A DNA stretch of 24,691 nt from a virus. The stretch spans positions 1-24,691 of IMG/VR virus record IMGVR_UViG_3300025889_016136; one strand, written 5' to 3'. Positions within the stretch are counted from its first letter, which is position 1; each line of letters starts with the position of its first letter. Under the pieces are notes generated by a model. It was not told the DNA's origin. It worked only from the letters and a program-made list of their open reading frames with translations, and made no database searches. This document shows, piece by piece, positions 7,682 through 24,691 of the stretch. A program made the translations under genes and the position numbers.

Positions 7682-7873
7682 TCAGACGGCCTTCTGCTCG
7701 TCGGCCTTGCGCTCGAAGTACGTGGCCTCCATGAGCAGTTGGTGGCGTGTCAGGTTGCCGAGGCCACGCTCGCGGAACCCGAGGACGTCCTTGGAGAGGT
7801 CCGAGACGTAGGTGAGAAGCTCGGCGACGGAGAGGCTGCGGGCGAAAGTGGTGGGGCGGGTCGTGTTCGTCAT
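7682..7873 (-). CDS. Small (63 aa) first gene of the replication operon
   Basis: ATG 7873 to TGA 7682-7684. The product begins MTNTTRPTTFARSLSVAEL and is predicted helical with a basic centre (FRERGLGNLTRHQLL) and a charged C-terminus (FERKADEQKAV). It is the promoter-proximal gene. The promoter cassette at 7964-7920 would start transcription near 7912, giving a leader of about 40 bases ending ACCACCCAGCC without a Shine-Dalgarno. No family is recognised; position suggests an early-expressed regulator or host-takeover protein, which is inference. Confidence 0.65.
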   Translation of the reverse strand: MTNTTRPTTFARSLSVAELLTYVSDLSKDVLGFRERGLGNLTRHQLLMEATYFERKADEQKAV

Positions 7874-7919
7874 GGCTGGGTGGTGGTTGCTGGCGAGGGC
7901 TGATTCCCTCGACACGCCT

Positions 7920-7964
7920 ACTTTCGGCTCTCTGGCCTGTTTTCGCAAGGCCCTTTTCGGAAAA
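7920..7964 (-). promoter_or_regulatory. Promoter with palindromic operator (copy 1, leftward replication operon)
   Basis: Read leftward: palindrome TTTTCCGAAAA (7964-7954), two bases, GCCTTGCGA with -35 box TTGCGA (7948-7943), 17 bp, then -10 box GAAAGT (7925-7920). The same order and spacing recur at two rightward sites (9802-9846 and 11248-11292). It lies right after the stop of the SNF2-like gene and faces the replication operon. Confidence 0.7.
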
Positions 7965-7968
7965 ATAG

Positions 7969-9384
7969 TCAGCGGACGCCCTCCAAGACCCCTGAGACCA
8001 GTTCCTCCCTCCGGCCCAGGACGCGGTAGACGACCTCGTCGATGGTCTCCCTGGCGTGAACGTGGTAGTAGGTCACTGGCCGGCCCTGCCCTGGCCGGTG
8101 GACGCGGGCGAGGCTCTGGAGATAGAGCCCGAGGTTGAACCCAGTGCTCAGGTAGACGCAGATCCGGGCTCGGGTCAGGTCGATGCCTTCAGCGCCGCTC
8201 GCGATCTGGACGACAAGCACGCGGGCTCCGCCGTTGCGCCACAGCTCCAGGTCGTTCGCCTCGCCGGACAGCTCCGCAACACTGGTGCCGGCCAGGGCTG
8301 CCGCCTCGCGCGTCACGCGGATGTCTTGGCGGAACTGCCCGAAGACCACGACCGGCTCGTCGGTGCTTTCTAGGATGTCGATCAGCGCCTGCTTCTTCGC
8401 CGTACACACCTCGACCTCCTCTCGGTCTTCGTGGCCCAGCAGGTTCGCTACCAGCGAGGCATCGTCTGTGCCGGTGGGCTCGTTCCGCTCAACGACGGCG
8501 AGTCCGCTGCACAGTTGCTGCATCCTGAGGAGCCGCACGAGGCCGTTCTGCGCGTTGATCTCGCCCTCCGCGATGGCGGCCTGGAGGTCGTTCGCGAGGG
8601 CGTCGTATAGCCTCCTGGCCTTGCTGTCGAGGTCCACTGTGATCGTCTCGTGACGAGCCTCCGGCAGGTTGAGCTGCACAGCATCGTCAGGCGGGCTGTG
8701 CATGAGGGCCGACATCCGGTCAGTCATCTCCTCTTGGCGCTGGTAGCCGACGACCTGCTTCGCCTTGTACCCGCCCATCTGGGCGTACCGTGCGCGGAAC
8801 GACACGAAGCTCCGCCCGAATACGCTGGGGTCCAGCGTGCGGAACTGGGCGAAGACGTCCATCGGGGAGTGCGGCATGGGCGTACCCGAGAGCATGACCA
8901 CGCGCCCGGCGGTCTGCGTGAGCCGCGCTGCCGCCTTGCTGGTCTTGCCGTGCGGGCTCTTCAGCTTCTGGGCCTCGTCGAAGACCACGAGGTCGAAGGC
9001 GACGGTCCTGAGCCACGCGGTCGCCTCGCGGGACAGCAGCATCTGGTAGTTGATGACGGCGACGAACGGCGCTCGGTCGTACCGGGCTCGCTCGTACTGC
9101 TTCTTCATGCCGCCGACGCGGGCCTTCACGCTGCGGCCCAGCTTGGTCGCGGGTGCGACTCGCCAGGGCCGCTCGCTCCAGGTCGAGAACTGGTTCGGCC
9201 ACACAGACGCGACCACGCTCTTGGGCGCGACGATCAGGACAGCCTGAGCGTGCGTTTCGTCGGCGGCGCTGACAACGCAACGGCTCTTGCCTGCGCCCAT
9301 CGTCAGGTGCAGGTAGCTCGCTCGGCGCTCGCGCACCCAGTCGATGGCGGCACGCTGATGCGGCCAAGGCTCGGGGATCGGCAT
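7969..9384 (-). CDS. SNF2-like superfamily 2 DNA helicase/translocase
   Basis: A 471-aa protein from ATG 9384, overlapping the HTH-gene stop as TGATG. Motif I is TMGAGKS (28-34), motif II DEAQ (136-139) and motif III SGTP (166-169). Motif V is QIASGAEGIDL (393-403) and motif VI LARVHRPGQ (425-433). Together with the N-terminal WPHQRAAIDW 'Q-motif' this is the SNF2/RapA-type two-lobe ATPase set found in many phages. These proteins move along double-stranded DNA without strand separation and are thought to serve replication, recombination or template remodelling. Length is typical of the minimal phage form, with no accessory chromatin domains. The in-frame extension above the chosen ATG is Arg-rich shadow sequence within the HTH gene. 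It is co-transcribed with the HTH regulator. Confidence 0.93.
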   Translation of the reverse strand: MPIPEPWPHQRAAIDWVRERRASYLHLTMGAGKSRCVVSAADETHAQAVLIVAPKSVVASVWPNQFSTWSERPWRVAPATKLGRSVKARVGGMKKQYERARYDRAPFVAVINYQMLLSREATAWLRTVAFDLVVFDEAQKLKSPHGKTSKAAARLTQTAGRVVMLSGTPMPHSPMDVFAQFRTLDPSVFGRSFVSFRARYAQMGGYKAKQVVGYQRQEEMTDRMSALMHSPPDDAVQLNLPEARHETITVDLDSKARRLYDALANDLQAAIAEGEINAQNGLVRLLRMQQLCSGLAVVERNEPTGTDDASLVANLLGHEDREEVEVCTAKKQALIDILESTDEPVVVFGQFRQDIRVTREAAALAGTSVAELSGEANDLELWRNGGARVLVVQIASGAEGIDLTRARICVYLSTGFNLGLYLQSLARVHRPGQGRPVTYYHVHARETIDEVVYRVLGRREELVSGVLEGVR

Positions 9385-9710
9385 CAGCGAGCGAACACGA
9401 CCTTCATGTCGTCGAAGTCTCGGGCGAGGTCCTTGGGCTTGATCCTCCTGCCGAGCTTCTCGGTCAGGAGCTGAGCGACGGCTGCGGCCTGATCGACGGT
9501 GGGCTTCCTCCCCACGCGGGCGGATTGCCAGCAATACACGAGGTGCGTCGAGACGCCGATCTCCTGAGCCATCTGGGCCGGACTAAAGCCAGCCATCTGA
9601 GCGAGGAACTTGTAGGTGCCAGGGCTCCACTCCGCGCGTTCGAGCCGGGGTCGCCCGACTCGTGCGGGCTTGCTGGCGGTCTTGCGGGGAGTCTTCTTGC
9701 GGGTCGTCAT
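9384..9710 (-). CDS. Helix-turn-helix DNA-binding regulator
   Basis: A 108-aa protein from ATG 9710. It has a basic N-terminal arm (TTRKKTPRKTASKPARVGRPRL, with an AT-hook-like GRPR) and then a Cro/XRE-like HTH, FSPAQMAQEIGVSTHLVYCW (about 43-61). A C-terminal helix pair ends the protein. Other ATGs at 9764 and 9761 exist, but the sequence between holds a GC-rich stem-loop (9719-9733) and would code Pro/Arg-rich residues, so the later start is preferred. The gene lies divergent to the ATPase gene and among three copies of a TTTTCSGAAAA palindrome. It is therefore the obvious candidate repressor or activator of those promoters. That link is inference; the protein is too small to contain a RecA-cleavable peptidase domain. 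Confidence 0.85.
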   Translation of the reverse strand: MTTRKKTPRKTASKPARVGRPRLERAEWSPGTYKFLAQMAGFSPAQMAQEIGVSTHLVYCWQSARVGRKPTVDQAAAVAQLLTEKLGRRIKPKDLARDFDDMKVVFAR

Positions 9711-9718
9711 AGGGCTTG

Positions 9719-9733
9719 GCCGGCGCTGCCGGC
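9719..9733 (-). other. Leader stem-loop before the HTH gene
   Basis: GCCGGC, AGC, GCCGGC on the leftward strand forms a 6-bp GC stem with a three-base loop, ending 8 bases above the chosen ATG of the HTH gene. It could modulate translation of the regulator. No T-run follows. Confidence 0.35.
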
Positions 9734-9759
9734 GTCTCGGGGTGATCTGCACGGCCTCC

Positions 9760-9788
9760 ATCATGGGGCGGTGCTGGGCGTTCAACAA
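9760..9788 (-). promoter_or_regulatory. Candidate promoter of the HTH-SNF2 operon
   Basis: Leftward TTGTTG (9788-9783), 17 bp, CATGAT (9765-9760) would start RNA near 9753, about 43 bases before the HTH ATG. The boxes are weak and only share the general nAnnnT form of the other -10s. The shared TTTTCCGAAAA palindrome (9812-9802) lies 13 bases upstream instead of 5, so regulation may differ. Confidence 0.3.
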
Positions 9789-9801
9789 GCCCCAGAGCGC
9801 C

Positions 9802-9846
9802 TTTTCGGAAAATACCCTTGCGAATGCCTCGCTGAGGTCCGATGGT
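9802..9846 (+). promoter_or_regulatory. Promoter with palindromic operator (copy 2, rightward ATPase gene)
   Basis: TTTTCGGAAAA (9802-9812), TA, CCCTTGCGA with -35 TTGCGA (9818-9823), 17 bp, -10 GATGGT (9841-9846). It matches copy 3 in every box and in spacing. The predicted RNA starts near 9853, leaving a leader of about 58 bases before the ATPase ATG at 9911. A GTG at 9854, in frame with the ATPase, would permit a leaderless alternative. Confidence 0.75.
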
Positions 9847-9910
9847 TGTGTCAGTGCCGGTCACCGGCGCAGCAACAACAACACCGACCCTTAGCCAACG
9901 AGGTTCCACG

Positions 9911-11188
9911 ATGACTCCCTTCACCTGCTTCTCCTCCTCCCATCAGGGCTGCGGCTCTGTCCACCGCACCCTCAAGGCCGCCCACGGATGCTGCAAGGTC
10001 GCAGAAACGCGATTCGGTGAGGTGCGCCAGCCGGTGCCCGTCGCCAGCCGTGCAGAGAAGGACGAGAAGTACCCGGCATCCGAGGCGGCTGCTGCTCGTT
10101 ACGCCGAGTGGGCCGCGAAGAACGGCGTCAACACGAAGGGCAAGCCCACGGAGGCAAGCGCAGAGCCGTCAGCCGAGCCCGCTCAGGAGCCCGAGCCCGC
10201 TCAGGCGGAGGCTGGGGCGGGTGCCCTCAACGGCGCGGACATCGCCGCTGCGGCTGCGACCGACGCCCACCCGCTCGCCGGCCTTGCGGAGCAGCTCCAG
10301 CCGCTCCTGGCTCCGCCGATCATCGAGGACGTCTGCGGATCCGTTCAGACGATGCTCGACTCCGCGATCAAGCAGGTCGAGGTTGAGCCGAAGGTGATCG
10401 AGGTCGTCACGCCCGACGCTGAGCCGGTGCAGATCGAAGGCGACCAGCACGAGAACTTCGAGCTGCTGCTCAAACTCGTCGGCGCTGGCGAGAACGTGTT
10501 CATGTCAGGCCCTGCCGGCTCAGGCAAGACGACCGGCGCAAAGAACGTCGCGGAGGCGCTCGGCATGGACTTGATCGTCCAGCCGGTCGCCCTCGACAAG
10601 TTCGAGGCTACCGGCTTCATCGACGCCGGCGGCAGCTACCGCGAGTCGGCGGTGTACCGCTGGGCCACATCCGAGAAGCCGGCGCTCCTCCTGCTCGACG
10701 AGGTGGACGGCTGGATGCCTCAGGCGCTCGTCGCCCTCAACCCGATCCTCGACAACCGCCTCGGCATCTTCCCTGGCGGTCAGCAGTTCGAGATCGACCC
10801 TCGCCACAGGGTCATCGCCACGGCGAACACCTGGGGCCTCGGTGCCGACGCCGAGTACGTCGGGCGCAACCGCCTCGACGCGGCCTCGCTCGACCGGTTC
10901 GGCGCTCGCATCGGCTGGGGCTACGACGAGAAGTTCGAACGCAAGATGGTCAAGGCCAAGTTCGGCCACGAGATCGGAAAGGCCGCCGTGGACGCCTCCC
11001 TGCAGGTTCGCAAGCGCCTGAAGGACACCGGCACGAAGGTGCTCTGGGGGCCTCGCCAGACGCTCGGGCTGGCCGCCCGGCTTGCGGCCAAGTTCACCCT
11101 CGCTGAGGCGTTCGAGGTTTCCGCCCTGGCCCAGCTTGCGGACGCCAACCGCAAGCGCATCCTTGAAGGTATCGCTGGAGTGAGCTGA
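9911..11188 (+). CDS. CobS/MoxR-like AAA+ ATPase
   Basis: A 425-aa protein from ATG 9911 (weak GAGG eight bases upstream). The N-terminus has a Cys/His cluster, CFSSSHQGCGSVHRTLKAAH then GCC, like small zinc-binding modules of phage proteins. A Pro/Glu/Ala-rich linker (about 75-105) follows. The AAA+ core has Walker A GPAGSGKTT (200-208), Walker B LLLLDEVDG (259-267), sensor-1 ATANTWG (303-309) and a LDRFGA arginine-finger region (327-332). This matches the MoxR/CobS group (AAA_5-type), which work as hexamers with VWA-domain partners to remodel proteins or insert metals; phages often carry a CobS-like ATPase of unknown target. The next gene encodes a VWA-like protein, reinforcing the pair. 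Upstream in-frame ATG 9842 overlaps the -10 box and is rejected. Confidence 0.93.
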   Translation: MTPFTCFSSSHQGCGSVHRTLKAAHGCCKVAETRFGEVRQPVPVASRAEKDEKYPASEAAAARYAEWAAKNGVNTKGKPTEASAEPSAEPAQEPEPAQAEAGAGALNGADIAAAAATDAHPLAGLAEQLQPLLAPPIIEDVCGSVQTMLDSAIKQVEVEPKVIEVVTPDAEPVQIEGDQHENFELLLKLVGAGENVFMSGPAGSGKTTGAKNVAEALGMDLIVQPVALDKFEATGFIDAGGSYRESAVYRWATSEKPALLLLDEVDGWMPQALVALNPILDNRLGIFPGGQQFEIDPRHRVIATANTWGLGADAEYVGRNRLDAASLDRFGARIGWGYDEKFERKMVKAKFGHEIGKAAVDASLQVRKRLKDTGTKVLWGPRQTLGLAARLAAKFTLAEAFEVSALAQLADANRKRILEGIAGVS

Positions 11189-11247
11189 TTCTCACTCGGT
11201 GTGTTGTTGCGGCGGCGGCGGTCCTTCGGGGTCGTCGCCGCCTTTCT

Positions 11248-11292
11248 TTTTCGGAAAAGGCCCTTGCGAGATCCGGCGGAGTTGCCGATGGT
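11248..11292 (+). promoter_or_regulatory. Promoter with palindromic operator (copy 3, VWA-like gene)
   Basis: TTTTCGGAAAA (11248-11258), GG, CCCTTGCGA with -35 TTGCGA (11264-11269), 17 bp, -10 GATGGT (11287-11292). The -10 ends six bases before the ATG at 11299, so RNA should start at or next to the A of the start codon, giving a leaderless message. The site lies in the 110-base gap after the ATPase gene. Confidence 0.75.
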
Positions 11293-11298
11293 TAGGTC

Positions 11299-12288
11299 AT
11301 GCAGAAGCAACAGCACACCCCTTCCACCGTCATGGTCTCCGACGAAGACGGCTCGCAGCACCGCTGCCTCAACGGAAACGTCCTCGCGGACATCTTCGCC
11401 AACTCGCCCGTCTACCGTCGCGAGACCCCTCCCGAGACCATCGCGCCTGACCTTAGCCGGATTGGCTACGAGGCCAACGGCGAGCGCATCGTGCGCGTCT
11501 TCGGGGACTACGAGTCGGCCCTGGCTCGCATGGAGGACATCTGGGGCACCCGCGACCAAGACACCCTCAAGGGCTTGCTGGCTGACCGCTACAAGCCCGT
11601 GCTCGGCGCGACGAAGGCCGCTGAGGCGCTCTTCGATCGCGTGCAGCGCGAGGTCCCCATCGAGACTCTGCGCTCGCAGATGGAGGCGTCCGTCTGCGGC
11701 GGCTCCCCCCGCATCGGCGCGTACCTCGCCAACGAGCCGCTCTCGATGAACCGCTTCGTCAGCCAGCTCAACGAGCAGGGAGCGATCCGAGTGTTCTACG
11801 ACCTCTCGACCTCTTCGGGCACGGCTTCCGATACCGTGCTCGGTCGCGGCGTTGCCGCCCTGGCCTTGGTCACCTGCCTTCAGCAGGTCCGCCCGGTGGA
11901 GCTGTGGATCACGACCAGCGGCACCGCTCGGAGCGCCTCAGGCGGCCAGTGCCACACCCTCTTCGGCCTCCGCCTCAGCACAGCACCGCTCGACCTGTCG
12001 GTTGCGTCTCGCGCCCTAGCGGACTACCGGATGCGGAACTTCCTTTACCGGGGCGAGATGCGGATGATCGGCGCTGGGTTGCACGAGCCGACTGCCCTGG
12101 CCTGGTCCCCGATCCCTTACGCTGTCAAGTGTGGCGCGACCCCGAACGACATCGTGATCGGGCCGCACAAGGAGGGCGAGAAGAACAGCGTCTCCCCGAC
12201 GCACTCGCCGGTGGACTGGATCAAACGGGAACTCGAACTGTGGCTGACGAACAGCGGGAACAGCGCGGCGATGGCCTCGCTCGGGTGA
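11299..12288 (+). CDS. VWA-like partner of the CobS-type ATPase
   Basis: A 329-aa protein from ATG 11299. The centre, IRVFYDLSTSSGTASDTVL (about 163-181), reads as a strand ending in a MIDAS-like DxSxS (D168, S170, S172). It is followed by an amphipathic helix GRGVAALALVTCLQQV and a strand VELWITTSGT carrying a possible third MIDAS Thr. This is the layout of a von Willebrand A domain as in CobT/MoxR-associated VWA proteins. The preceding SVCGGSPRIGAYLANEPLSM is reminiscent of uncharacterised phage/plasmid proteins (DUF7192-like) found with CobS-like ATPases. It probably forms a remodelling complex with the upstream ATPase; the substrate is unknown. It has its own promoter, almost certainly leaderless. 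Its stop overlaps the start of the next gene as GTGA. Confidence 0.88.
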   Translation: MQKQQHTPSTVMVSDEDGSQHRCLNGNVLADIFANSPVYRRETPPETIAPDLSRIGYEANGERIVRVFGDYESALARMEDIWGTRDQDTLKGLLADRYKPVLGATKAAEALFDRVQREVPIETLRSQMEASVCGGSPRIGAYLANEPLSMNRFVSQLNEQGAIRVFYDLSTSSGTASDTVLGRGVAALALVTCLQQVRPVELWITTSGTARSASGGQCHTLFGLRLSTAPLDLSVASRALADYRMRNFLYRGEMRMIGAGLHEPTALAWSPIPYAVKCGATPNDIVIGPHKEGEKNSVSPTHSPVDWIKRELELWLTNSGNSAAMASLG

Positions 12289-15376: not shown

Positions 15377-18300
15377 TAGAAGATCTCGTTCCTCGCGTGT
15401 AGTTCAGTCGGCCCTTGCTCGACGTTGCTGCGCCTCGGGACGATGATGTTTGTGTGGAACCGCTTGATGCGGATGTTGTAGGTGTCGTCTGGCCGTGTCG
15501 AGATGAGGCGCATCCTGACCATGACGGCCGTGTAGATGCCACAGGTGAACGGCTGCCAGTCCGACCAGCCGGAAGAGGTGCCGTCGACGTTTGTGCGGAT
15601 CTGCATCTTCAACGTGCAGTTTGCCTGGTCGTCAGCAGCCACTTCGGTCGGTCCCTCGAAGCTCCATCTCTGAAGCTCCAAGGAGTCAAGCGGCAGCGCC
15701 GTTCCGCCGATGGTTCTTGGGTGGACCTGCTCAGCCTCAGCGGCAGCAGTCACGAGGAGGCGGCGAGGGGCCTGGGCGCTCGTGTCCACGATGGTCGTGT
15801 TGTCCCAGCGCGTGATGTAGGTCCCGACGAGCCCGCTGCCGGTAAACTCCAGCTCGCCGTCCGCGTTCTCGGTCAGAGCACCCGACACCGCCGGGCCGTC
15901 AACGTCAGGGAAGCCGGGATACCACGAACCGGCGGAGTAGGTCTCCCAGGTCGCGGTGCCACCCATCGCGAAGTTCACGCTGTCGTAGGCGGCTGCGAGG
16001 ACCGAGAGGCTCGGGTCTACTGTAGCCTCTGCTGAGAACGTGTCGCTCCGGGCCTTGCTTCGGGCGTGGAGCCGGCCAACGCTGGCGTCCGACACAGGGA
16101 CGAACAGGTCCGGCGTGATTGCGGTCAGCTGCCCCTCGCGGGTCTCGGCTACACGTTGCCCGAGGACCCATCCACCTCGTCGGGTCTCAATCGTCAGCAC
16201 TCGACGCCGCTCAGGGCCATCGTTGCTCGGGATGTAGGCCGCCGTGTAGGTTGCCAGCAGGTCCTCCGCCTCGGCTGTCAGCGAGGTCGGTGCCTCGGGC
16301 CGGAACGACAGCCCCTTGATCCGGTGGACCGCCCGAGTGCCTGACTGGGGAGGCTGCGCCGGGAAGGCCGCTGTGACGGGCACCACGCTCGTTTCAATGA
16401 GCTGCCCGACCAGGGCTCCAGGCAGGACGCAGGATGCCGTAGAGGAGAGCCCAGAGACCTCTGAGCCCAGCGTCCAGCCGCCTTGCGCTGAACCGGCGCT
16501 CTCGAACACTCGCCAGAACACGCGGCACCCCGTCTGGGTCGCTGCCGTTGCCGGACTGTTCGTCCACGTCACGCTGAGCTGGAGCTGGAAGTTGCCGGGC
16601 GTCGGCTCCGTGTTGTTGTCCGTGGCGCTGGAGGCCAGCGGCGACGTCGGCTGAAGGTTCGGCGCTGGCTTCTGGTCAGGGAGCTGGCGGATCGCTCCTC
16701 CGGGCGTGTCCTCGATGGCGTCATCCGCGAACACGCCCTCGTTGTATTCGACCCACTCAAAGTCGGCGCTCATGTCGCGCTTCCGGCTAATACCGCTGAC
16801 CTCCACGATCAGCTCCTCAGCGGAGGAGGCCACAATGTACGCGGAGCCTCGGACGGCAATCGTGTTCAGCGTGTTGCTCGTGAACAGCGTGCTGCCCGCC
16901 TCGTAGGTGCCGGGCGGCGTCAGGGTCGTGTCGAGGCTCGCGGAGACGCTGTTGCCACGGAAGTCCTGCACGAACAGGGTGTAGTTCGTCGCGGCCTCAA
17001 TCGTGACAGGCCGGTCGATGATGGCCCCCTTCGTCGGGATCGGGATCGCGCCGTACTCGCCCTGGGTGGCGTTGGCGAAGCTGAACCTCGCTGAGCCTGA
17101 GGCTCCGCCTGCCCTCGGGTAGATCCGCAAGGTGACCGAGGCCGTCTTCTCGCGGCCATCTGGGGCTTTGACGAAGAACGATGCGGAGAGGTATCGGTTG
17201 AAGCCGCCGAGGTCTTGGATGGAGCCTCGCGTCGGCTGGTCAAACGAGTCGTCGGCGGAGGCAGTGACAGCGCTGAGGTCAAAGGTCACCCCCGTGGTCG
17301 CCCGGTCGGTCACCAGCTCAATGCGCGGCGATGCGTTGAGGATCTGCTCGGCGCAAACGGTGACGCTCACCCACCCGTCGCTCTTGTCGGAGAAGCCGAT
17401 CGCCTGCTCAACGTAGCCGGTGCCGTCGATTGTGTCGGCGGTGCTGCCCCCGAACGGGTCCGCGCCCGTGTTCGCCGTCACAGTTACCGAGGAGGCGGTC
17501 CAGGAGCCGCCTGTGAAGTCTTGACGGTCCTGAAGGGCTCCGGGCTCGGATGGAGCGGCGGACGCAGCACAGCGGCCTGACGCGCCCCTGGGAAGGACCT
17601 CGCTCGACACGCGCAGGAGGTCGCCCACCTGATACGGCAGGGCGTCCATCGCGGCGCTGAACTTGCCGCTCCTCTTCTGGAGCTGGTTAGTTAGCAGGAT
17701 GTAGTTCCCGTGGCGCTCCGCCTGCCCTGCATCGGTGACCCCAAACAGTTGGCTGTTCTCCTGCCGGATGAACGTCTGGTTCGTGACGGAGTCCAGCTCC
17801 TCGCTCTGCACCTGCACGGGGACCGGCTCGAAGCCTTGCTGCGCGTCGAGAATGTTCAGCGTCAGGGCGTTCGGGCGGGTCTTGGCGCTGCTGAAGTCGA
17901 CCTCGAAGCTGCCCTCGATCATGTTGCTCGCCGTCAGCACACCGATGGGCGTCCTGGGCCGCGAGAATCGCACGCTAAGGCTGCTACCGACAGGCACCGG
18001 TGCCGCTCGGCCAACCGCGCAAATCTCCAGCAGGGCATCCCACGCGGATCCGGTCCGGTCGAACACGCCGTTGAACTCGAACCGACGCTGGCCGCCCTCC
18101 ACTGAGGCACCGTTGAGATCGGTGGGAGTCAGAACGTCTGCCCCGAGGCGCTGCCCGCTCGTCCACGGATCCGGCTCCGTCAGCCGGTCCCAGTAGCACT
18201 TGATGGTCCACACGCCGTCGAGTAGCTGGGCCTCGATAATCTCGTATCCAGCCCCCGTGCCGCTGTTGATGTCGTTGCTGACGCCCGGCGTCGTCGCCGT

Positions 18301-20844: not shown

Positions 20845-21212
20845 TGGGTCTCCGGGTCGCGGTAGATGCCCTGGACGTCCTTGACCGTGCTGAGGCGCTG
20901 CGCGTACACCCCGTAGCCCGTGGCCGCTGAAACCACGAGCGTCGGGCTCGTCGCCGCCACTCCGCTCACATGGAGCCCGTCTCCCGCAAGGCTTAGTACC
21001 ACATCGCCTAGCCTCGCTGGTCCCTCGACCCGAATCCAGTTGTGCGTGGGTTTCTTCAGCAGGCCCAGGAATCTGTCCCTGGCTGCCTCCCCGTGCGCTC
21101 GGGCGACGATCTCGGCAGTCGCCCCATAGCAGTCCAACGCGCCGTTCTCGGGGTCATGAGAGCCTGCCTCGTACCGGAGCGCGAGCAGGTCGTCGTAGCG
21201 CATCATGCCCAT
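20835..21212 (-). CDS. NlpC/P60-like tail-assembly peptidase (lambda K-like)
   Basis: A 125-aa protein. ATG 21212 overlaps the L-gene stop as TGATG; a GTG one codon earlier (21215) would give a GTGA overlap and is equally possible. DCYGATAEIVARAHG carries the candidate nucleophile Cys (C28 from this start), and GLHVSGV carries the candidate His (H81) on the next conserved strand after LGDVVLSL. That is the Cys...His layout of NlpC/P60 papain-like peptidases, here about the minimal domain size. In lambda, gpK sits between L and I/J and is a tail-tip assembly factor with peptidoglycan-hydrolase-type fold. The gene order L-K-I/J is the same here, which strongly supports the call. Confidence 0.88.
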   Translation of the reverse strand: MGMMRYDDLLALRYEAGSHDPENGALDCYGATAEIVARAHGEAARDRFLGLLKKPTHNWIRVEGPARLGDVVLSLAGDGLHVSGVAATSPTLVVSAATGYGVYAQRLSTVKDVQGIYRDPETQCL

Positions 21213-24200
21213 CACTGGCCGGCTCGCGGGATGCCAGGGAATGCTCCGAACCGGGCAGGGTGCGCTCGGGCGAAGCCCTGGGCGACCTCGTCGTCCCCCC
21301 GCTCCTCGCAGTTCTCCAGGGTCTTGTTGCAGGTTGAGAACCCTGCGCCAGCCACCTCAGTGTTGTAGCCGCACTCGGCGGAGCCGAAGATCCACCGGCA
21401 TCGCCTCCGGCTGTGAATGAAGGGCGGGAACTGGAGCTGATACAGGTTGAAGGCTGACACCTGAAGAACGATGGCCTCGCTCTTCACAGCCGCCGAGACG
21501 ACCTCCCCCTGCTGCGACACCGCCGGCTCACCGCTCGCGATGTCGAGGGCGCTCACGAGCATGATGCGGACAGGGAGGCCGACGAACCCGTCTGCCGCGT
21601 CCATCGTCGCACCTACCAGCGGCCCCGCGTGCCCGAGGGTGATCGGGATGGTCGGCAGGCTGCCGTCCGTGCCCTCCTCCACGTTCCCGTGCGTGATCGG
21701 GGCAGGGGAGTAGGTCAAGGGCTGCCCGCTGGCGTTCAGGCCGAACTGGACGCTCTGCGTGAAGTTCGTCAGCCTGTACCGCCGAGGCGGGTCCTCGTTA
21801 GTCTGCAGCTCGTAGAGCCAGATCCAGGGGATCTGAGTCTCAAGCTGGTTCGCGTGGAGGGCCGAGTTGTTGCCAAGGGTCGACGAGACAGCGACCGCAA
21901 TCACAGCGGCAGCCTCGAAGGCTCCAGGGTTGGCTGAGCCCGCTCCTCGCACAACGCCGAGAATGTCCAGCTTGGGCACTCCGGCGGTGGATGTGCCAGC
22001 ACCGGCCTGCCAGACGGCGTTGCTCTCTAGGTCGTAGAGCTGCCCGGTGTCAGCGTCGTAGATCGCGAGGTCTGCGCCGGTCGCAAGGGTGTTCGTCGTC
22101 GGCGTGATCGGGTAGGGCGAGCCCTGGAGGGCGGCGGGGAGGTCAGTGCCCCCGCCCGTGCTGGGCGAAAAGTTGTTCGAGCCCGTCACGGTCAGCGTGC
22201 CAGATCCTGAGGAAGTGAAGGGCCGTGGAAAGGCCGTCCAGCAGTTCAGCACCTGCAAGGAGTTGGTGCGGCCTGTGTTGGTGTATAGGCTGAACTGCCG
22301 CTGGTTTATGTCACCCGCAAGAGCCGGATCATAAAGGTTGGTGCAATTCCTAATGCGGAAGTGCGAGTCAGCGGAATCTGCGCTGATATTAAAGCTGCCT
22401 CGGACTACGCAGTTCTCAACGATGTGCGGGTTCGCTGATGTTCCAGATCCGTAAGGAGAGAAGATGAAGTTGCCTAGGATTGCGCCGCTCGTGGATGACC
22501 CATCCCAGAGGCAGTTCTGAATCAGGTTCCCCGCTGTTCCGGCTGTCTGGAACCTGAGTGCGGAGGGACCAGATGCTTGGAACTGAAGGTCGCGGAACGT
22601 GATGTAATCCGTAGACGCATAGACGCACGCCGTGGCCGTGTGGGTCAGGATCGGCCCCGAACCAAAGACGCCGCCATGCGGCACCGCAGCCCGATAGGTG
22701 ACGTTACGCGTTGGGTCCTTTGTGAGGCCGTCAGACATGACCACCAACCCGCTGTAGGTTGCAGAGTCCACAACGAACTCGATCCGCTCGTTCTCAAACA
22801 CAAGGTCCGCAGACCCGCCGATGTTCTCAACGTCAGCTTCCGCTTCAATGAACGTCGCGTAGTCCCGCCCGACGGGCCCGATGGTCCTCGTCAGCACCGC
22901 AGTCGCCTGAGCCAGCGCGAACGCTCCGGGGTTCGTCGTCGTACCTGACCGCGTGTCGCCAAGGATGTCGGTCGTCGGCACATCGCTGTTAGAGGCCGGG
23001 CCGACGCCACCGTTGATCACGTCGTTGTGCGGCGAGTCGAGGAGCGCACCGTTCTTGCCGACGTACAGCGCGAAGTCGCCGGAGCCAGGGTCGTAGGCGG
23101 TCGATGGCGTGTACTGCGCCCCGATACCAAAGTGCGCGAACGTGAAGACGGAGGTCGGCGCACCAGCGTTGCCGATGTTGTTCGAGCCCTGGACGTTCTT
23201 GCCGCCGCCGCCGATGTTGCAGTCGCTTGAGTTCGGCTCAAGAATGATGCAGTTGACGATCTCGTACAGGTCTGCCGTGACGCCCGATCCCCGCGAGGCG
23301 TTGAACACATTGGTGCCAACGCCTCGGCCCAAGAAGGTGCAGTTCAGGAACCGCTCGAAGCTCGGAAGATTTGCGCCGCCACCGCCTCCGGTAAAGGTCT
23401 GAACCTTGCAGACGAGGTTGCGGTAAGTGATCGGGAACAGATCTGTGCCGATGCTTCCAGGCGCGTAGTTGTTTCGGATGCCCACCATGCTCCCGCCAAT
23501 CGCGCCGTTCGTCTCGTGTTCGCAGTCCTCGAAGATCATCCCCTCGACAATCGGATGCGTTGCGTTGTTACCGATCCAAAAGCCACGGTGGGTGATGCTG
23601 TTGCTGTAGGCGTTTATGCCCGTCCAGCGAGTGAAGCTATCCTGCACCGGGATATCGACATAAGTTGCACGGTAGACGCGCGGCGACTCTCCGGGTGCGG
23701 CCTTCCACCAGACATATCGCGTTGGATCCGCCACGATGTCGCTGATGATGGCTACGTTGCTAAAGTCCGAGTCGGCGTAGCAGACGAACTCGATGCGCTC
23801 GTTGCTGTGGGTGAGGTCCGCGCCACTGCTGCCGATGTTCTCAACGTCAGCCTCGGCCAATCCCAGGGAAGCGTAGTCGCGCGAAGCCGTGCCGACCGTC
23901 CTCGTGATGACCGTAGGCGCAACAAACCCGTCCGCCTCAAACGCCCCAGGGTTACAGCTCGCCCCGCTTCGCGCCACGCCGTTGATGTCGGTCGTCGGAA
24001 CGCTCGCGTTCGCGCTCGGGCCGACGCCCTGCTGCCACACGTCGTTCCCCGTTACGTCCGCGAGGGCTCCGGTCGCGCCCATGTAGACCGCGTAGTCTCC
24101 CGCGCCCAACGGCGTGCTGAAGCTCGTGGTGGCGGTGATCGGGTAGGGGGAGCCCTGGAGGGCGGCGGGGAACGGGTTGGTCGCGCCGCCGAAGTTGTTG

Positions 24201-24691
24201 GAGCCTGAGGCGTTGCTGCCGAAATAACTCCACGCGCCGCCAGTTCCTTCGTTCAAGACCAAGCAATTGAGCACCTCTGGGTATACGGAGAATCCGCCAC
24301 CCTCAATTCCCTGAATCGCTGGTTGCGAGCCGCCAAGAACACGCAACGTGCAGTTCACCACCTTCGCGTAACTGTTGGCAGTGTTGCAAAAGATGTAGCA
24401 CGCCTGATAGTCCAGCGAGATCATTACGCTGTTCTCAACAACAACGGGGTTCCCTGAGGTTGCCGCGTTGGTGATGAACAATGGGCGACCGCTAGAACCA
24501 GTGGCCTCGACGATACACCTAGAGAGCTTGAGCCCCTCAGGTCGCAGGATTGTGACGTAACCAAAGGCCAACGACGAGCGAATGACAATGCCCTCGAAGC
24601 GCAGAAACTTCTCTGTAGCTTGACAGTTGAGTGTGAACCCAGTGCCTGACAGCCGAACACCGGAGTCCTTGTCGCCACCATGCTCACTCCC
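21212..24691 (-). CDS. Minor tail protein L fused behind a modular beta-helix (5' end outside window)
   Basis: The frame is open to the right edge (1159 residues visible; no start inside is needed). The last about 215 residues are an L-type tail-hub protein: a beta domain (YRLTNFTQSVQFG, THGNVEEG, ITLGHAG, VRIMLVSALD) then CRWIFGSAECGY, TCNKTLENC and RFGAFPGIP. The four cysteines (1098, 1107, 1121, 1128 of the visible part) match the metal/iron-sulfur-binding C-terminus of lambda gpL. Before it lie at least three modules of about 330 residues forming a right-handed beta-helix. Each ends in a 'D-I-x-G-x-x-R-x-G-x3-NPGAF' motif (visible residues about 235, 590, 925), and two begin 'RT-I/V-G-x3-RDYA ... 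AEADVENIG'. The modules likely project from the tail tip for receptor or polysaccharide binding. The first visible residues already belong to a module. Confidence 0.92.
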   Translation of the reverse strand, partial: GSEHGGDKDSGVRLSGTGFTLNCQATEKFLRFEGIVIRSSLAFGYVTILRPEGLKLSRCIVEATGSSGRPLFITNAATSGNPVVVENSVMISLDYQACYIFCNTANSYAKVVNCTLRVLGGSQPAIQGIEGGGFSVYPEVLNCLVLNEGTGGAWSYFGSNASGSNNFGGATNPFPAALQGSPYPITATTSFSTPLGAGDYAVYMGATGALADVTGNDVWQQGVGPSANASVPTTDINGVARSGASCNPGAFEADGFVAPTVITRTVGTASRDYASLGLAEADVENIGSSGADLTHSNERIEFVCYADSDFSNVAIISDIVADPTRYVWWKAAPGESPRVYRATYVDIPVQDSFTRWTGINAYSNSITHRGFWIGNNATHPIVEGMIFEDCEHETNGAIGGSMVGIRNNYAPGSIGTDLFPITYRNLVCKVQTFTGGGGGANLPSFERFLNCTFLGRGVGTNVFNASRGSGVTADLYEIVNCIILEPNSSDCNIGGGGKNVQGSNNIGNAGAPTSVFTFAHFGIGAQYTPSTAYDPGSGDFALYVGKNGALLDSPHNDVINGGVGPASNSDVPTTDILGDTRSGTTTNPGAFALAQATAVLTRTIGPVGRDYATFIEAEADVENIGGSADLVFENERIEFVVDSATYSGLVVMSDGLTKDPTRNVTYRAAVPHGGVFGSGPILTHTATACVYASTDYITFRDLQFQASGPSALRFQTAGTAGNLIQNCLWDGSSTSGAILGNFIFSPYGSGTSANPHIVENCVVRGSFNISADSADSHFRIRNCTNLYDPALAGDINQRQFSLYTNTGRTNSLQVLNCWTAFPRPFTSSGSGTLTVTGSNNFSPSTGGGTDLPAALQGSPYPITPTTNTLATGADLAIYDADTGQLYDLESNAVWQAGAGTSTAGVPKLDILGVVRGAGSANPGAFEAAAVIAVAVSSTLGNNSALHANQLETQIPWIWLYELQTNEDPPRRYRLTNFTQSVQFGLNASGQPLTYSPAPITHGNVEEGTDGSLPTIPITLGHAGPLVGATMDAADGFVGLPVRIMLVSALDIASGEPAVSQQGEVVSAAVKSEAIVLQVSAFNLYQLQFPPFIHSRRRCRWIFGSAECGYNTEVAGAGFSTCNKTLENCEERGDDEVAQGFARAHPARFGAFPGIPRAGQ
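22104..22140. repeat. Direct repeat within the L beta-helix (copy A)
   Basis: A 37-base segment (GTGATCGGGTAGGG...) recurs at 24135-24171 with a single mismatch, coding LPAALQGSPYPIT in both modules. Higher identity than the surrounding modules suggests recent duplication or recombination. Confidence 0.85.
22817..22837. repeat. 21-base exact repeat at module starts (copy A)
   Basis: GCCGATGTTCTCAACGTCAG plus C is identical to 23831-23851 and codes ADVENIG near the start of two beta-helix modules. Confidence 0.85.
23831..23851. repeat. 21-base exact repeat at module starts (copy B)
   Basis: Identical to 22817-22837; together the two mark a module period of about 1.0 kb. Confidence 0.85.
24135..24171. 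repeat. Direct repeat within the L beta-helix (copy B)
   Basis: Second copy of the 37-base repeat at 22104-22140, one mismatch, coding FPAALQGSPYPIT in the first visible module. Confidence 0.85.

Follow-up and report, generated by a model that had tools for sequence, protein, structure and literature searches.

A repeated promoter-like cassette with a putative UP element and leader hairpin in a group of phages

The sequence analysed here ("the window") is the entire IMG/VR record IMGVR_UViG_3300025889_016136, 24,691 bp from a virus of bacteria. It contains three copies of a cassette in which the palindrome TTTTCSGAAAA stands at a fixed distance from hexamers resembling a −35 and a −10 box, which raises the question of what the palindrome does beside a promoter. 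In the original prediction, a promoter-operator cassette connected the replication operon to the ATPase/VWA genes. Of this we retain a family of promoters with fixed geometry, common to these two sets of genes, but not the operator part. We propose, with a probability of about 0.66, that the cassette is a multi-copy phage promoter module driven by the host polymerase, with an upstream (UP) element and usually a 5′ hairpin.

According to this proposal, the C-terminal domains of the host polymerase alpha subunit likely contact an UP element made up of an A/T island (−51 to −48) and an A-tract (−44 to −41). A weak sigma70-type core (−35 TTGCGR, 17 bp, −10 GANRGT) would follow, and then a purine at +1. 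A GC stem-loop from +2/+3 would usually shield the 5′ end of the mRNA, its place being taken by an ATG at +1 in one copy. In this way the host polymerase would initiate transcription of several short phage units, probably early in infection, and because the cassette copies are repeats, recombination between them could add or remove whole units.

Cassette copies in the window and its relatives

The positions and strands originally assigned to the three window copies were borne out, and each copy consists of TTTTCSGAAAA, 2 bp, SCCTTGCGA, 17 bp and GAWRGT (Table 1). Each is intergenic and, as had been claimed, aimed at a gene, with start codons at 7873 (leftward), 9911 and 11299 (both rightward). 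Another ATG, at 9842, overlaps the −10 of cassette B and is probably not the true start of the gene served. With at most one mismatch, TTTTCSGAAAA occurs at these three places only (expected 0.12), and none of 100 shuffles gave three such matches. The 22-bp left part of the cassette, with at most three mismatches, likewise has three matches only, and a reversed-pattern control has 0. Scored with a position matrix, the copies reach 47-71, and everything else stays at or below 5 in the window, in the 55-kb relative G001 and in eight simulated sequences of matched dinucleotide make-up; the matrix was derived from the scored copies themselves, and the informative figure is the empty score gap between the copies and the rest.

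Table 1. Coordinates of the cassettes and associated features in the window.
Feature	Coordinates	Strand	Details
Cassette A	7920..7964	-	TTTTCCGAAAA 7964-7954; -35 TTGCGA 7948-7943; 17-bp spacer; -10 GAAAGT 7925-7920
Cassette B	9802..9846	+	TTTTCGGAAAA 9802-9812; -35 TTGCGA 9818-9823; 17-bp spacer; -10 GATGGT 9841-9846
Cassette C	11248..11292	+	TTTTCGGAAAA 11248-11258; -35 TTGCGA 11264-11269; 17-bp spacer; -10 GATGGT 11287-11292
Predicted +1 and leader stem-loop of cassette A	7894..7913	-	+1 G, 7913; CGAGGG-AATCAG-CCCTCG (7911-7894)
Predicted +1 and leader stem-loop of cassette B	9853..9870	+	+1 A, 9853; GTGCCGG-TCA-CCGGCGC (9854-9870)
First gene after cassette A	7682..7873	-	63 amino acids; no family
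Helix-turn-helix (HTH)-like gene	9384..9710	-	Reader proposed by the original prediction; candidate by position only
AAA_5 (MoxR-like) ATPase gene	9911..11188	+	Putatively served by cassette B
Intrinsic-terminator-like stem-loop	11211..11242	+	Just upstream of cassette C; T-tract enters left arm of palindrome
DUF7192-like gene	11299..12288	+	VWA gene of the original prediction; putatively served by cassette C

The nearest relative, G001 (IMGVR_UViG_3300025674_000052; 55,417 bp, 65% GC), is 93-99% identical to the window (about 97%) across the shared blocks. It carries seven copies: three that match those of the window, the homologue of cassette A being diverged, and further ones at 16717, 17764 and 18145 (leftward) and at 21414 (rightward). 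Three of the seven lack the left arm of the full palindrome. All seven are on the coding strand, no more than about 100 bases before a start codon, and none precedes structural genes. Copies are also present on four other contigs, namely L014 (one), L017 (three), L022 (three) and the more distant L028 (two), some of them orthologous to G001 copies. The search of the phage and its relatives that the original prediction had suggested uncovered a family with all copies aimed at nearby start codons. A query built from the −10 and the leader hairpin, leaving out the −35 and the palindrome, retrieved the same phage group together with four unrelated matches that lack the module. In the collections scanned, the module is therefore specific to this group.

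Several candidates outside the group were set aside. Matches to a loose pattern in L012, L015, L018-L021 and L030-L033 are without the module's remaining parts, and we judged them to be chance. The sole match to the cassette pattern in a bacterial genome, on a Cloacimonadota contig, has a different sequence context and no leader hairpin, and is most likely chance as well. The Sinorhizobium phage phiM5 was considered as a cultured relative that might bear the cassette; its best matrix score is far below those of the copies, and it has only distant ATPase and DUF7192 homologues in common. No DNA match to the window was found in 50,697 phage records, no relative in the bacterial genomes queried with the terminase, and no match in Rfam and tRNA searches. 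For this phage group, to which no close cultured relative was found here, the cassette offers a sequence signature by which transcription units could be mapped.

The palindrome as a candidate UP element

We aligned 14 copies, each placed with +1 seven bases after the −10. The original prediction held that a dedicated protein, bound at the palindrome, is kept at a fixed face of the polymerase, and the perfect 5-bp arms of all three window copies invite such a view. The wider alignment does not sustain it. The left arm is AAATC, GAATC, GAATC and GAAGC in four of the 14 copies, which have lost the symmetry and kept most of the A/T content, and the centre of the palindrome is 1 or 2 bases long. 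Dyad symmetry with a constant half-site spacing, as expected of the operator of a dimeric regulator, is therefore not common to all copies, although a subset could still be bound. Because a dimer's operator should keep both symmetry and spacing, and both vary, the palindrome is not a conserved operator.

A and T are retained at particular positions regardless of whether the arms are complementary: all 14 copies have one or the other at −50, −49 and −42, and 13 do at −48, −43 and −41. On the predicted +1, TTTT occupies −51 to −48 and AAAA −44 to −41. The published UP consensus (Estrem) runs −59 NNAAAWWTWTTTTNNAAAANNN −38, with a proximal A-tract at −44 to −41 (quoted in PMC5664571). The cassettes have A/T tracts in the corresponding intervals, −53 to −47 and −44 to −41, with a short distal tract and three G/C-rich bases in between, a correspondence that relies on the predicted +1. 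They thus share with UP elements the order of TTTT, short gap and AAAA, and differ in the conserved CSG of the 3-base gap and in a short T-tract one base further upstream (PMC5664571); contact with alpha is presumed. Between g16 and L022c, which are orthologous, the left arm has changed and the A-tract, hexamers and spacer are the same. From the alignment, we consider it more likely that the A/T island and A-tract form an UP element for host RNA polymerase than that they form a regulator site. A striking palindrome beside a promoter can be an UP element, and here this became visible only through the more diverged copies. TTTTCSGAAAA also resembles the CodY box of Firmicutes, a likeness that we set aside; the 65% GC and a tail protein resembling lambda J among the G001 and window proteins argue against such a host.

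Core hexamers and leader hairpins

Most copies have TTGCGA or TTGCGG as the −35, with TTGCCG and TTGACG in L017 and TACCGG and TCGACG in L028. For the −10 the general form is GANRGT; L014 carries GATAGT, and GATGAT is found in both L017 and L028. The spacer is 17 bp in 14 of 14 copies, within the 17 ± 1 bp of sigma70 promoters, and the earlier observation that A2 and T6 alone of the sigma70 box survive in the −10 extends to all 14 (A−11, T−7). Compared with TTGACA/TATAAT, 12 of the 14 have TTG, the best −35 is TTGACG, −12 is a G and the best −10 matches at 4/6; a general sigma70 scan calls none of the sites. A sigma70-type core appears the likeliest assignment, because the −35 varies and the −10 reaches GATAGT and GATGAT, which are nearer to the consensus. 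In the part of the G001 and window proteins that was scanned, nothing was recognised as a sigma factor or polymerase gene.

The predicted +1 is a purine in every copy (14/14). From about +2/+3, all copies except C contain a GC-rich stem-loop, with four distinct stems (CGAGGG/CCCTCG, CGAGCG/CGCTCG, CGGCGG/CCGCCG and GTGCCGG/CCGGCGC) and compensatory changes from GAGGG/CCCTC to GAGCG/CGCTC and to GGCGG/CCGCC. At random G001 positions, comparable stems with at least 8 pairs occur in 1.2% and with at least 7 pairs in 2.9% of cases (G-U allowed). Chance is therefore an unlikely source of four distinct hairpins at one position, although they had been spotted first and tested only afterwards. Given the predicted +1, the hairpins combine proximity to the 5′ end with compensatory change, as expected of 5′-terminal stem-loops. 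Secondary structure at the 5′ end stabilises mRNA, because a single-stranded 5′ end is what RppH and RNase E require (PMC3997798), and by analogy the leader hairpin may stabilise the phage mRNA. It resembles the described stabilising stem-loops in starting 2-3 bases from the 5′ end and differs from them in being part of a repeated promoter module, its stabilising effect being presumed (PMC3997798). In cassette C, the ATG (11299) coincides with the predicted +1, and the mRNA is probably leaderless. This position of the ATG fits leaderless translation, in which a 5′ hairpin would be harmful.

Two further observations concern the leaders. An exact 20-base leader hairpin, GTCGAGGGAATCAGCCCTCG, occurs about 55 bases upstream of an ATG at L029:3027-3046 (IMGVR_UViG_3300044644_001490), which has no cassette there and no DNA similarity to G001; this match may be chance. 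In window 7949-7873 and in the G001 cassettes 16717, 17764 and 35201, the cassette and leader are open from the −35 TTG, in frame with the downstream ATG, which probably reflects a common leader length and not coding. We rejected the idea that the cassette encodes a conserved N-terminus read from this TTG, since in copies B, C and g18 the frame either differs or ends at a stop.

Units served, competing explanations and known systems

By their sequence, several units appear to be arranged as promoter, gene and terminator. Besides the stem-loop upstream of cassette C (Table 1), a terminator-like stem-loop lies 3′ of the gene putatively driven by G001 16717. Reading the sequence revealed others in G001 between the gene of 18145 and cassette 17764, between two L017 cassettes, and after the first L028 unit. 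At the borders of the cassettes, gene content differs among relatives. The gene after cassette A is replaced by a different one in G001, after which the replication operon continues leftward. In L017, a short gene absent from G001 sits between two cassettes; the single G001 cassette at that place combines the upstream flank of the first of these with the downstream flank of the second. Gene flux of a similar kind at repeats is described in Corndog-type phages (PMC4351075). Taken together, repeated promoters, short units of promoter, gene and terminator, and the turnover of genes make a testable case of small-gene swapping without loss of expression.

Several points weigh against a host-driven promoter module of the kind we propose. 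Its core is weak for sigma70, with only 2-4 of 6 matches in the −10, and the invariant CCGA at −14 to −11 is not required by sigma70. Every promoter position assumes a +1 seven bases after the −10, deduced from the sequence. The CSG between the A/T islands is conserved beyond the needs of an UP element, perfect arms of 4-5 bp are retained in 10 of 14 copies, and an A-C mismatch interrupts the leader stem in G001's counterpart of cassette A. The number of copies is small, and some of them share a common origin.

Part of this evidence would suit an operator at which a phage regulator, for instance the HTH-like protein, or a host protein activates or represses, so that the replication operon and the ATPase/VWA genes are controlled together. 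Besides the retained arms, the conserved TC and G around the centre favour this explanation, as does the HTH-like gene, which adjoins cassette B and whose own operon has no cassette. A precedent is the middle promoter Pm of phage Mu, where an activator dimer binds inverted repeats of 5 bp that lie roughly this far away (PMC4390567). The C and G around the centre are not explained by an UP element, and a protein that reads the palindrome is therefore conceivable. However, four copies with an intact core have no left arm, the length of the centre varies, and the left arm differs between orthologous copies. The HTH-like protein, which the original prediction put forward as the reader, has only weak HTH matches, no confident family and no informative PHROG, and its model, of low confidence (mean predicted local distance difference test score, pLDDT, 62) and too weak for a fold search, matched nothing in the PDB, leaving position as the sole link. 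Pm and its activator Mor resemble the cassette in the 5-bp-arm inverted repeat in the −40s and in a weak core, but at Pm the −35 is replaced by the Mor element, which the promoter needs, whereas the cassette has a −35 and its symmetry is dispensable across copies (PMC4390567). Altogether we regard an operator as unlikely, although we give it more weight than the remaining alternatives.

Somewhat more doubtful is a core read by another sigma factor or a phage-modified polymerase through the hexamers CTTGCG and CCGANRGT, with the A/T tracts still acting as an UP element. The best argument for it is the invariant CCGA, joined by the near-invariant CTTGCG; both depart from the sigma70 consensus, and the general sigma70 scan does not call the sites. 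GCCGAT is also similar to the −10 of sigma28 promoters, but the sigma28 −35 (TAAA) is absent. The 17-bp spacing, A−11 and T−7, and variants (TTGACG, GATGAT, GATAGT) that drift towards sigma70 speak against a different polymerase form, as does the lack of a recognised gene for one among the proteins scanned, which were part of those of G001 and the window. A yet more speculative extension would treat the whole as a portable unit (UP element, CTTGCG/CCGANRGT core, 5′ hairpin or leaderless start, gene, terminator) whose repeated promoter doubles as a recombination joint for exchanging small genes, with a non-housekeeping form of polymerase reading its core. That the repeats are mainly recombination or replication sites, their promoter likeness being secondary, seems very improbable. 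The differing gene content at the cassettes and the known repeats with such a role in Corndog-type phages (PMC4351075) would agree with it, but strict orientation to start codons, the 17-bp spacing, the purine +1 and a hairpin or ATG at a fixed distance fit transcription starts.

The host-driven promoter module that we favour is, by analogy, best read as functionally like the early promoters of T4 (UP/−35/TGn/−10; PMC2988021). Both have many copies per genome, conservation beyond the hexamers and an UP element (putative in the cassette), and the cassette, like the T4 promoters, would be a target of the host polymerase. The T4 hexamers, however, are near consensus, whereas the cassette has a weak core without TGn, few copies (seven known in G001) and a built-in 5′ hairpin. 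The 17-bp repeats of Cluster O mycobacteriophages (PMC4351075) and the SAS/ESAS of Cluster K (PMC3203893) are similarly phage-group-specific, and many are intergenic or near gene starts; the Cluster O repeats also share gene gain or loss. Both have other consensus sequences and are not described as −35/−10 promoters with leader hairpins.

Some features of the surrounding genes were also recorded. A pair similar to the AAA_5 ATPase gene and the DUF7192-like gene that follows it at window 9911-12288 is found in phiM5 at about 33-35% identity. At L010:4222-7267 (G001 24.2-27.3 kb), genes for ParB-like proteins and ParB-methyltransferase fusions stand consecutively in tandem, and in part they repeat each other's sequence. 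In the large tail-region gene at 21212-24571, segments in window 22093-24172 are repeated at several places in G001 tail genes, at 68-90% identity, which suggests shuffled or duplicated domains.

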